DNA from: a virus
Length of the DNA stretch: 36,199 bases
Virus record (IMG/VR): IMGVR_UViG_3300047408_000168
Location: 1-36,199 of that record
Reading direction: 5' to 3' (one strand)
Shown here: positions 30,148-32,873 of the stretch, in pieces
Layout of the letters: every line of letters begins with the position of its first letter
How positions within the stretch are numbered: the first letter of the stretch is position 1
The notes under the pieces: model-generated
Told to the model about the DNA's origin: nothing
The model's input: only the letters and a program-made list of their open reading frames with translations
Databases searched by the model: none
Made by a program: the position numbers and the translations under genes

Positions 30148-30576
30148 TCATTCGGGTTCGGGTTTTTTGGAGTGGCCGTTCTGGTGCATGCCATTGGCGA
30201 GCGAAGCCAGCGCCAATATCAGGTTAGCGACGGCGCGGCGGACTTCTGGCGATTTGATTGAGTCCCAGGCCTCCGCCACCTCGACGCCGACGGCGGTCGA
30301 GCCCAGCCGCGTGATCACGTCGTCACGCCGGCTGACTTTTGACACGCCGTCGGGGACCTTGCAGATTTCGTCGACAGACACGTTGAACAGTCTTGCGATC
30401 TGGATGAGCCGGCTGCCGCTGATGCGGTTCGCGCCCTTCTCGTATTTTTGCACCTGCTGAAAGGTAAGCCCGAGCTCCTTGCCCAGAGCCTCTTGCGACA
30501 TCTTATGAATGTTGCGCAGTGCACGTAGATTGCGGCCAATCGCAACGTCGTAGGGGTTTGGGAGTCTGAGTGACAT
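30148..30576 (-). CDS. Cro/CI-type (XRE) repressor
   Basis: 142 aa from ATG 30576, preceded by GAGG seven bases away. Helix-turn-helix at about 14-68: AIGRNLRALRNIHKMSQEAL, GLTFQQVQKYEKGANRISGS, LIQIARLFNVSVDEI, a typical XRE domain with the recognition helix TFQQVQKYE. The remaining 75 residues have no peptidase motif (no LexA/CI Ser-Lys autoprotease), so induction must be through another route. It is the likely lysogeny repressor, because it lies next to attP and integrase. The frame is open far upstream but that region has no protein-like sequence. Confidence 0.8.
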   Translation of the reverse strand: MSLRLPNPYDVAIGRNLRALRNIHKMSQEALGKELGLTFQQVQKYEKGANRISGSRLIQIARLFNVSVDEICKVPDGVSKVSRRDDVITRLGSTAVGVEVAEAWDSIKSPEVRRAVANLILALASLANGMHQNGHSKKPEPE

Positions 30577-31066
30577 GTGCGGCCTCGACTTTTGTTTGTG
30601 TCTGGGTGGTGTCCCCTCCCCTTCTCGGCGCCGCACGGCTTTGCCAGTCCCCTCAAAATGAGGGGGCCTGTTTGATGGATTTTTGGTGTGTCGTGCCACG
30701 TTCGCCGCCCCGCGAAAGATCGGGGCAAGCGGCCCCGGTGACCGGGGGTGAGAACACCTGCAACTAGGTGAGCGGGGCCTTCGAGCTTTCGCTCTATTGT
30801 ATAGCGTCCGCACCCCGGCCATGATGGCCGTGGGGGCGCAGCCGCTAAGCCGCGTCCGAGTGCCGAGCGCTGCTTCAACAGCGCGGGGACACCGTCGGCG
30901 GATAGAATCCGCCCAAGTTGCATCAGGGTTCTCACACCCAGCCGCGACTTTAGCGCTCGGGCGCCGGGCGTCGCAACGCCCAAATATGTGTAATTCTATA
31001 TCTTTTAGTTGTCGGCTCACGCGCTGCGCCCTTGACCTCGCCCCAGCAACATCCGCAAGGCAGCCG
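30577..31066 (-). other. Gene-free, hairpin-dense leader upstream of the repressor
   Basis: Nearly 500 bases with no convincing gene on either strand. Perfect inverted repeats: 30649-30665 (7 bp stem), 30733-30747 (7 bp), 30755-30770 (5 bp), 30783-30794 (4 bp), 30817-30829 (6 bp), 30867-30884 (6 bp), 30897-30913 (7 bp) and 30966-30981 (6 bp). Read on the minus strand (that of the repressor), 30783-30794 becomes GAGC-GAAA-GCTC with a GNRA loop and 30966-30981 becomes GGGCGT-TGCG-ACGCCC with a UNCG-type loop. An A+T-rich patch at 30982-31010 could hold a minus-strand promoter. This suggests a structured RNA or repressor leader; operators may be in it too. Confidence 0.5.
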
Positions 31067-31320
31067 GTACCACAATGGGTGCCACAGTGACTGCGCGACC
31101 GTGCGGGGAAAGCCGCCAAAATGCTATATGAAATGGGGGTTTGTGCGAGGTAACACAGAGCCGGCTTGGCTGGTTTAGCAAACCGCCGCCTTCAGCCACT
31201 CGGCCACGTCTCCGCAGGCAGAAATCCTTATAGAATGCGGGTTTCCTCGTCAACACGCGAAACGCGCCAACCGCGAAAAACGCGCAGAAAGTGCCACACG
31301 GTACCACAATGGGGACCACA
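31067..31320. other. Phage attachment site (attP) with tRNA-Ser core and arm-type repeats
   Basis: A core of 42 bases (31172-31213, minus strand) equals the 5' half of a tRNA-Ser(GCU) gene: acceptor GGAGACG, a D arm, and an anticodon loop TTGCTAA. It breaks after AAACC; the 3' half and T arm are absent. Five copies of a G(T/G)(G/A)CCACA motif flank it: 31067-31074, 31079-31086 on one side and 31291-31298, 31301-31308, 31313-31320 on the other. They have the spacing of integrase arm-type sites. The integrase gene follows, as in most temperate phages. Confidence 0.8.
31227..31253 (-). promoter_or_regulatory. Possible promoter driving the tRNA-Ser 5' half
   Basis: On the minus strand TTGACG (31248-31253) is followed after 15 bases by TATAAG (31227-31232), 13 bases before the first tRNA nucleotide (31213). 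The spacing is a little short for sigma-70, but the position fits a tRNA promoter. If real, the phage supplies both promoter and 5' half of the tRNA gene when it integrates. Confidence 0.45.
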
Positions 31321-31348
31321 GTAAACGGGCGCGAATGCCGATCTGTTC

Positions 31349-31627
31349 TCATGCCGATACCTCGGGATAATAGGCGCGAGCGACTTCCTGACCCCGTTTG
31401 GCCTTGCGGCGCGCGATCGCCACCGCCGGATCGTCGGTGTGCAGCGACCAACGAAAACGCTGGCCCTTAACCTTGGTCTCCGCCCACAGCACCGCCCCGC
31501 GCCAATAGCAACCGCGCGGCGCCTTGGGTGCTACCTTCTCGACGGCCAGCACTTTGCGAAGGGCCAGACTGGCGCGCACCTCGGCCACGCTATCCGCTTC
31601 AACCTCGATCGTGACGCGGTACCTCAC
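31349..31627 (-). CDS. Stand-alone copy of the integrase N-terminal domain
   Basis: 92 aa from GTG 31627, overlapping the integrase TGA (GTGA), so translation is probably coupled. Residues 1-33 (MRYRVTIEVEADSVAEVRAS...) form a beta-alpha unit not found in the integrase. Residues from about 35 on (APRGCYWRGAVLWAETKVKG, QRFRWSLHTDDP) match integrase residues 5-36 (APAGCYWRDTVLWAQVKIKG, RRIRWSLDTDDP) at 23 of 32 positions without gaps. That part of the integrase is where arm-type DNA-binding domains sit. It lies between int and attP. It may bind the arm sites and change the choice between integration and excision, or be a decayed duplicate; no family is known to me. Confidence 0.7.
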   Translation of the reverse strand: MRYRVTIEVEADSVAEVRASLALRKVLAVEKVAPKAPRGCYWRGAVLWAETKVKGQRFRWSLHTDDPAVAIARRKAKRGQEVARAYYPEVSA

Positions 31628-32694
31628 GACGCCCGCCCGAACTTGGCGGCGCGCTCCACCGCGGTGGTGACGTATTTGAGGTAGCCCTCAGTCACCGCGA
31701 TGGTGGAATGACCGAGCCGCTTCTGCAGGTCGTAGAGGTCACGGCCCGACTGCAGCCAGTCAACGGCGTGCTTGTGCCTCAGGTCGTGGAATCGAAAGGG
31801 CTTGAACGGCACGCCGGCATCGGCCGCAAACTTGGCGGTACCGCCCACAAGGTTGTTCGCAAAATTTGCCGACGCGTTGCGGTAGGGCTCGCCACGGTCG
31901 TGCCAGAAGAGAAGATCGCAACCAACATAGCTCGGCAAGTTGGCGAACGCCTGATAACCGTCGAACGGTCGCAGGTCGATCACGCGCATCTTGTTGCCCT
32001 TGCCGATGACGGTCAGTTCCTTGCGCTGGTGATCGAGCTGCGAGCGCTTGGCGGTGACGAGCTCGGCCTGCCTCGCGCCAGTCACCCACGCCGCGCGAAT
32101 GAGCTGCGGCCACATCGAGACCGCCTGCGCGCCGGGACGGCGATCGCACTCTAGGCCGCGCGAGATCACCAGCTCGATATCCTTATCGTTCGGCAGCACG
32201 ATCGGGTCGCGGCGCTCCTTCACGCCCCGCATGCGCGGCAGCACCGGATTGCTCTCGCACCAGCCGCGGTCGACAGCGTAATTGATGACCGATGACAGCG
32301 CGCCGAGATCGCGGCGAACAGTGGCGTTGGTAACCACCTTCTGGCGTTCGGCAACAATGTCGCCGATGAGCCGCGCGTTAATGTCGGGAAGCTTGCGACC
32401 TTCCAGGAAAGGCGCGAGCTGACCTAGCGATACCATGTAGCGGATAAACGTCGCCGGCGAACTCTGCGCCTTGAAGTGTGTCCCCCACGCCTTGATCAGT
32501 TCGTCGAGAGTGTGCACGGCGTCACCGTGGATCAGCTCGGCGATCGCGCGGGCTTTGCCGGCTTCGCGACGCTGGCGCGCAAGCTTTGGATCGTCTGTGT
32601 CAAGGGACCATCGGATGCGCCGACCTTTAATCTTGACCTGTGCCCAAAGGACGGTGTCGCGCCAGTAACAACCCGCCGGTGCTTTCCTTGCCAT
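31624..32694 (-). CDS. int: Tyrosine integrase
   Basis: 356 aa from ATG 32694 with AAAGGAACG upstream. Residues 5-45 are a small N-terminal arm-binding-like domain (see the neighbouring 92-aa gene). Residues 60-150 are the core-binding SAM-like domain (HTLDELIKAWGTHFKAQSSP and following). The catalytic domain has R208 (VTGARQAELV), a likely K232 (IGKGNK), H303 and R306 in FHDLRH, H329 in RLGHST and the nucleophile Y338 (TEGYLKY). All catalytic residues are present, so it should be active on attP just downstream. It overlaps the upstream excisionase-like gene by 163 bases. Confidence 0.93.
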   Translation of the reverse strand: MARKAPAGCYWRDTVLWAQVKIKGRRIRWSLDTDDPKLARQRREAGKARAIAELIHGDAVHTLDELIKAWGTHFKAQSSPATFIRYMVSLGQLAPFLEGRKLPDINARLIGDIVAERQKVVTNATVRRDLGALSSVINYAVDRGWCESNPVLPRMRGVKERRDPIVLPNDKDIELVISRGLECDRRPGAQAVSMWPQLIRAAWVTGARQAELVTAKRSQLDHQRKELTVIGKGNKMRVIDLRPFDGYQAFANLPSYVGCDLLFWHDRGEPYRNASANFANNLVGGTAKFAADAGVPFKPFRFHDLRHKHAVDWLQSGRDLYDLQKRLGHSTIAVTEGYLKYVTTAVERAAKFGRAS

Positions 32695-32873
32695 GTCTCG
32701 CGTTCCTTTTGGCGCACGTAGGCGCGCAGCTTTTCGAGGTTGAACGACCAGCGTCGGCCAAATCGGGCAGCGCCGGGAATATCGCCGCGTTGGGCCATTT
32801 CCTGAACGGTGCGAACTGGCAGCCCAAGGATTTCCACCGCTCGCTCGATCGTCGCCCGTTCTGGATCGGCCAC
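32532..32873 (-). CDS. Excisionase-like protein, overlapping int
   Basis: 113 aa from GTG 32873 with AAGGAG seven bases upstream (a strong site). Residues about 5-50: RATIERAVEILGLPVRTVQE, MAQRGDIPGAARFGRRWSFN, LEKLRAYVR, the helix-turn-helix-17/excisionase pattern. The domain is finished near residue 55; the remaining 53 residues overlap the start of int in another frame and look like its shadow. So either the gene really overlaps int by 163 bases, or the tail is functionless. A -1 or +1 slip would fuse it to the integrase. It may steer excision or repress int. Confidence 0.65.
   Translation of the reverse strand: MADPERATIERAVEILGLPVRTVQEMAQRGDIPGAARFGRRWSFNLEKLRAYVRQKERETWQGKHRRVVTGATPSFGHRSRLKVGASDGPLTQTIQSLRASVAKPAKPARSPS

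Follow-up and report, generated by a model that had tools for sequence, protein, structure and literature searches.

Can a phage replace the promoter and 5' half of a host tRNA gene when it integrates, and does it thereby take control of that gene? The question is raised by a tRNA-Ser(GCU) 5' half, GGAGACGTGGCCGAGTGGCTGAAGGCGGCGGTTTGCTAAACC, which lies just downstream of a TTGACG/TATAAG pair in the stretch of viral DNA analysed here (the window, 36,199 bases). A preliminary description had interpreted this arrangement as an attP that carries the 5' rather than the 3' part of its target, and had proposed that the phage controls expression of the tRNA in its lysogen. The arrangement itself was confirmed (Table 1), and the interpretation is partly supported: in our assessment, the locus is very probably an attP that exchanges promoter and 5' half at tRNA-Ser(GCU), with maintenance of the gene as its role.

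Table 1. Features of the attachment region (coordinates are those of the window)
Feature	Position	Strand	Evidence
HTH_17 domain ORF	32685-32867	minus	Pfam HTH_17 E 7e-9; PHROG excisionase E 1.5e-5
Tyrosine recombinase (integrase), 356 aa	32694-31624	minus	Pfam PF00589 E 9e-15; PHROG integrase E 7e-47
92-aa ORF, overlaps integrase stop (GTGA)	31349-31627	minus	copies integrase N-terminal region
Arm-type repeat, integrase side of core	31299-31331	minus	82% direct repeat of 31065-31097
Promoter-like pair, TTGACG (31253-31248) and TATAAG (31232-31227)	31253-31227	minus	recurs in L004 and L005
tRNA-Ser(GCU) 5' half, attP core	31213-31172	minus	direct reading; 42 nt
Palindromic anticodon stem-loop GGTTT-GCT-AAACC	31172-31184	minus	sequence symmetry
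Conserved block AAACCCCCATTTCATATAG, far side of core	31123-31142	minus	near-identical in L004, flanks diverged
Arm-type repeat, far side of core	31065-31097	minus	direct repeat family D7
Cro/CI-type HTH regulator	30148-30576	minus	Pfam HTH_3 E 2e-14; PHROG transcriptional regulator E 2e-14

The attachment core and its surroundings

The tRNA half extends from the acceptor strand through the 3' side of the anticodon stem, where identity stops at AAACC (position 31172) and gives way to non-tRNA phage DNA, AGCCAAGCCGG. The first bases of this DNA are unlike host 3' halves, and it is thus the 5' half that is carried, as had been proposed. The tRNA-Ser(GCU) gene of a Rhodopseudomonas MAG begins with exactly the 42 nt of the core, and exact matches were also found in 4 of 385 alphaproteobacterial genomes. 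No complete tRNA was detected by ARAGORN anywhere in the window, and no whole tRNA or known RNA family was found in it; the Rfam tRNA model matched 31213-31156 at E 0.86, the lack of a 3' half keeping the match under the gathering score. In blastn searches against phage records, annotated tRNA-Ser genes were matched at E 3e-8. The matches from Komagataeibacter phiKM1 and Wolbachia WO were set aside; there, the tRNA-Ser genes are complete and lie close to an integrase and a DNA invertase.

The integrase gene is transcribed towards the tRNA half, with its stop 371 bp ahead of the promoter-like pair. A 33-bp direct repeat occurs on both sides of the core, as arm-type integrase sites would predict. 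The conserved block on the far side, which is lacking in L005, resembles a block in the near-side -10 region and is a possible Xis, IHF or Int site. The HTH_17 ORF overlaps the start of the integrase gene, and a homologous ORF precedes the integrase gene in L004; its product is probably a recombination directionality factor of the excisionase type. The 92-aa ORF is 52% identical to the N terminus of the window's own integrase over 58 aa (E 2e-19). The copied region is probably the arm-binding domain, and the protein could act as a competitor for arm sites or as a directionality factor. This ORF is absent from L004, and a solo integrase N-terminal domain matched no phage record, with one equivocal contig-end match elsewhere. 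Folding of stem-loops near the core was no better than that of shuffled sequences, except for a GC-rich segment between the core and the HTH gene (30690-30830, minus strand), which had a z of -2.1 against shuffles and no Rfam match.

Two other phages contain a comparable locus. The integrase of L004 is 88% identical to that of the window, and its locus has the same order: integrase gene, repeats, TTGACG-15-TATAAGG, tRNA-Ser(GCU) 5' half, conserved block and repeats, with TTGTGGTAA-type repeats at both arm positions of the window. L005, a phage contig with an integrase 49% identical to the window's, has its own repeats, GGTGATAAAT, on either side of the core, a tRNA 5' half that ends inside the anticodon loop and an integrase gene that does not lie upstream of the tRNA half. 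Both retain the promoter pair and spacing of the window with diverged spacers, that of L005 being wholly different. Because the integrase gene adjoins the fragment, direct arm-like repeats flank it and relatives share the layout, the fragment is an attP of the class that targets tRNA genes with a 5' fragment, here beside a tyrosine integrase.

Exchange of the 5' half in integrated relatives

A scan of genome contigs with a single integrase found no relatives. With an alignment of three integrases, 15 related, usable loci were recovered from alphaproteobacterial genomes (L010-L024), and their junction types were read from the sequence beyond each integrase gene, several of the supporting genomes being drafts or MAGs. 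Eight of the 15 have the host 3' half at the integrase-side junction, the classical form: L010, L011, L012, L018, L021 and L023 at tRNA-Thr(UGU), L019 at tRNA-Ser(GCU) and L022 at tRNA-Ser(UGA). At the other 7 (L013-L016, L017, L020 and L024), the 5' half is supplied by the element. The host 5' half faces the integrase gene in the Methylobacterium loci L013-L016 and L024 and also in L020, at tRNA-Ser(GCU), where an intact copy is found elsewhere with a different upstream sequence and with phage genes, e.g. for endolysin, farther out. The L017 MAG has an intact tRNA-Ser(UGA) directly 3' of the integrase gene; one further strong match in this genome, on another contig, covers query bases 1-44 only and is followed after the break by arm-like, prophage-type repeats. 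Besides L017 and Methylobacterium sp. W2 (below), 5'-half cases include Methylobacterium E-045, E-005 and fujisawaense, MAG AP_29 and a 3.7-kb island. Matches on Azospirillum plasmids (integrase 36% identical), with an intact tRNA-Ser(GCU) and the element on its 3' side, are of the classical form and provide a contrast.

The decisive case is Methylobacterium sp. W2, where a single contig spans both junctions; they are separated by 57 kb that include genes for the terminase large subunit, head closure, scaffold and tail. One end has a 5'-half remnant, which the integrase gene adjoins, and the other an intact tRNA-Thr(UGU). The genome contains no third match, and the one intact tRNA-Thr(UGU) found in it is preceded by prophage DNA. 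The empty site is seen in the related genome G019, which contains one uninterrupted tRNA-Thr(UGU). On the downstream side, this gene is flanked by sequence that matches the DNA beyond the intact end in W2 (94% over 1331 bp), and on the upstream side by sequence that matches the DNA beyond the remnant end (93% over 1383 bp); therefore, the host promoter and 5' half have been displaced. That the phage-type upstream sequence in W2 might be the host's own is rejected by the same comparison, which documents prophages that supplant the promoter of an essential tRNA gene together with its 5' half and leave the tRNA intact. W2 and the L017 MAG together establish that, in this subfamily of integrases, phages do replace the 5' half and bring in a promoter with it.

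The junctions of the relatives stop within, or just past, the anticodon loop, in keeping with the expected crossover in or near the anticodon stem. For the window phage, we infer a cut in the same stem-loop, the crossover region probably being the 7-nt loop at 31181-31175. The proposed comparison of junctions also bore out the predicted layout, with phage upstream DNA and 5' half joined to the host 3' half and the host 5' half displaced, in W2 at tRNA-Thr(UGU); neither the window phage nor L004 was found as a lysogen, the integrated relatives recovered being more distant ones. This last result would be compatible with the fragment being a decayed tRNA gene or a chance duplication outside integration, the integrase using some other site. 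Against such an origin, the 42-nt identity is perfect and ends exactly at the anticodon stem, arm-like repeats lie on both sides, two other phages have the same arrangement and the integrated relatives break at the same point, and we consider it almost certainly wrong.

The attP reading can be applied to the Rhodopseudomonas MAG, which also contains L010, the bacterial integrase closest to that of the window. An in-silico attR, made of the window 5' side and the 3' half from this MAG, contains a complete tRNA-Ser(gct) according to ARAGORN, and the in-silico attP and attL contain none. The predicted course is as follows. The phage would be temperate, and its integrase would recombine in the anticodon loop of the host tRNA-Ser(GCU) gene, with an attP made up of the tRNA 5' half and, ahead of it, a tRNA-type promoter and a short leader. 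Integration would cut off the host promoter and 5' half, leaving a dead fragment at the integrase-distal end, and would place the phage promoter and 5' half directly before the 3' half of the host, giving an intact tRNA gene beside the integrase gene.

Phage-type upstream sequences in Methylobacterium are also seen in genomes without a 5' remnant. Seven more genomes (L069, L071, L075, L077, L084, L086 and L090) have CTTGACGAAGCGCC-like phage-type sequence before tRNA-Thr(UGU); a 5' remnant is detectable in L075 only, and L069 has a 3' remnant downstream. The assumption that every such upstream sequence in Methylobacterium marks a prophage was therefore rejected, most other carriers having no 5' remnant; those without one are either scars of lost prophages or native promoters. 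In Methylobacterium sp. E-065 (L034 and L038), contig ends join the phage-type promoter and 5' half straight to integrase-side phage sequence, as an attP or tandem prophages would, with several copies in this one draft genome.

The promoter-like pair and its probable role

TTGACG and TATAAG are separated by 15 nt, and TATAAG lies 13 nt ahead of the first tRNA base. A promoter scan at spacings of 16-18 did not list this pair. Exact TTGACG-15-TATAAGG was obtained in 0 of 200,000 shuffles of an 80-nt stretch, and any promoter pair matching at least 10 of 12 positions at spacings of 14-19 in 0.4% of shuffles. As far as sequence can tell, recurrence in two other phages with different spacers is better evidence for a promoter than these shuffles. 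The Rhodopseudomonas MAG has TTGACG-15-TATAAGG upstream of its own tRNA-Ser(GCU), at the same distance as in the window. Several genomes of its family have TTGAC-type promoters before this gene, and others have the CTTGC...GGGCATAT type. Because ordinary tRNA promoters of likely hosts resemble it, the phage promoter looks like a normal host tRNA promoter.

The pair might nevertheless be inactive in the lysogen, with the rebuilt tRNA arising by read-through of the integrase gene or of another upstream phage transcript. The integrase gene does point at the tRNA half and ends close by, and in L017, where the tRNA closely follows the integrase gene and no clear consensus promoter precedes it, the tRNA may be expressed in this way. 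Such an origin is very unlikely for the window phage, given that three phages, among them L005 with no integrase gene upstream, retain TTGACG-15-TATAAGG with spacers that have diverged, and that a weak terminator-like site separates the integrase gene from the promoter in the window. The tRNA of the lysogen would more plausibly be transcribed from the phage-borne promoter, the likeliest role of which is to keep an essential gene working.

The stronger proposal, that the phage controls the tRNA, did not fare as well as the observation on which it was built. Under this proposal, the level or timing of tRNA-Ser(GCU) would be altered, for example at induction, with Int and Xis on the adjacent arm and core sites. 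The promoter is flanked by an arm-type repeat and the core, and an attR intasome could therefore cover it; in addition, the displaced host promoter differs from that of the island in MAG AP_29 and at the 3.7-kb island. However, no operator or regulator link was found for the phage promoter, and tRNA-Ser(GCU) genes of the probable host family often have a promoter of this type, which suggests housekeeping. Altered regulation is thus highly unlikely in our estimate. Maintenance of an essential gene is the simplest reading and regulation by the phage possible but unsupported; the promoter probably serves to keep the gene on and not to regulate it.

The exchange would also act in the other direction, the host gene receiving the phage tRNA promoter and the prophage the displaced host promoter, which would read inward. 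In a lysogen of the window phage, the Cro/CI-type gene, downstream of the core, would sit downstream of the displaced promoter. It is an improbable idea that this exchange signals lysogeny. If it did, the displaced promoter would run towards the Cro/CI-type gene (30576-30148) in the window phage and antisense into the integrase gene in the Methylobacterium layout, and the host tRNA promoter would support immunity or silence excision in the integrated state only.

Known systems and changes of polarity

As expected, carriage of a 5' half sets the window apart from most known elements: among 3919 islands, Islander lists 3760 with a 3' tRNA fragment and 159, about 4%, with a 5' fragment (PMC4383910). 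The 5'-fragment islands share with the window a tyrosine integrase, a site in the anticodon loop, a 5' half supplied by the element and displacement of the host 5' half. The present finding is a well-supported member of this previously recognised minority class. Islander counts the class without promoter analysis (PMC4383910), whereas the promoter was compared across phages here; unlike the class as counted, moreover, our data place 5'- and 3'-carrying relatives in a single integrase subfamily. Archaeal pTN3-type integrases also use the 5' half of a tRNA gene as att site (PMC5495485; reviewed in PMC8371274), and the rebuilt tRNA is reviewed as being expressed from the element's (integrase) promoter, an arrangement seldom met in bacteria (PMC8371274, citing Williams 2002). 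In those elements, the integrase gene itself contains attP and is split by integration; in the window, the integrase gene is intact, ends well before the promoter and is distinct from the separate tRNA-type promoter that precedes the half tRNA. Islands in dusA and prfC substitute a 5' end and promoter of their own for those of the host gene that they interrupt (PMC4482086, PMC8409611), and lacZ fusions with IMEVchUSA3 have shown dusA to be driven by the promoter of the element, which is weaker than that of the host (PMC8409611); these islands differ from the window in having protein-coding targets and other integrases.

Dependence of an essential host tRNA function on phage DNA, with a site in the anticodon loop, has been described for mycobacteriophages as tRNA-dependent lysogeny (PMC10865867). 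In that system, integration does not restore the host tRNA, for which an entire phage tRNA gene substitutes, whereas the window combines a 42-nt core, not a short one, with the lack of any complete tRNA gene. If the phage promoter is active, the host would depend on prophage DNA, and imprecise loss of that prophage end should be lethal, which would help to hold such prophages in the genome.

In the integrase tree, which is small (20 rows) and for which modes were assigned by hand from junction sequences, 5'- and 3'-carrying elements interleave within one subfamily. Well-supported branches force at least 3 changes of mode, with 4 being most parsimonious, and a tree in which all 5' carriers form one clade is rejected (p-AU 2e-85). 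L010, the closest bacterial relative of the window integrase, is of the 3' kind. The orientation of the integrase gene relative to the tRNA varies as well, all four combinations of mode and orientation being represented. Alternation of 5' and 3' carriage within one integrase subfamily is less expected than membership of a known class, and the palindromic anticodon stem-loop may be the reason that polarity can switch. With both forms and both orientations in one subfamily, the evolution of polarity at a palindromic anticodon loop can be studied.

Two of the 5'-half elements were also inspected for cargo. The 3.7-kb island (L130:6733-10513; G485:C17:109732-113512) lies at tRNA-Ser(GCU) between a 5'-half remnant and an intact tRNA; no integrase was seen within it, and it encodes a reverse transcriptase-protease fusion (PADLOC RT-Protease_XI, E 2.5e-180) and an Mrr-type nuclease. 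The element in MAG AP_29 (L131:3904-8520) has, in a row, genes for an Eco57I-type methylase and for a protein that contains two HATPase domains, plus one more ORF, which together may form a defence cluster.
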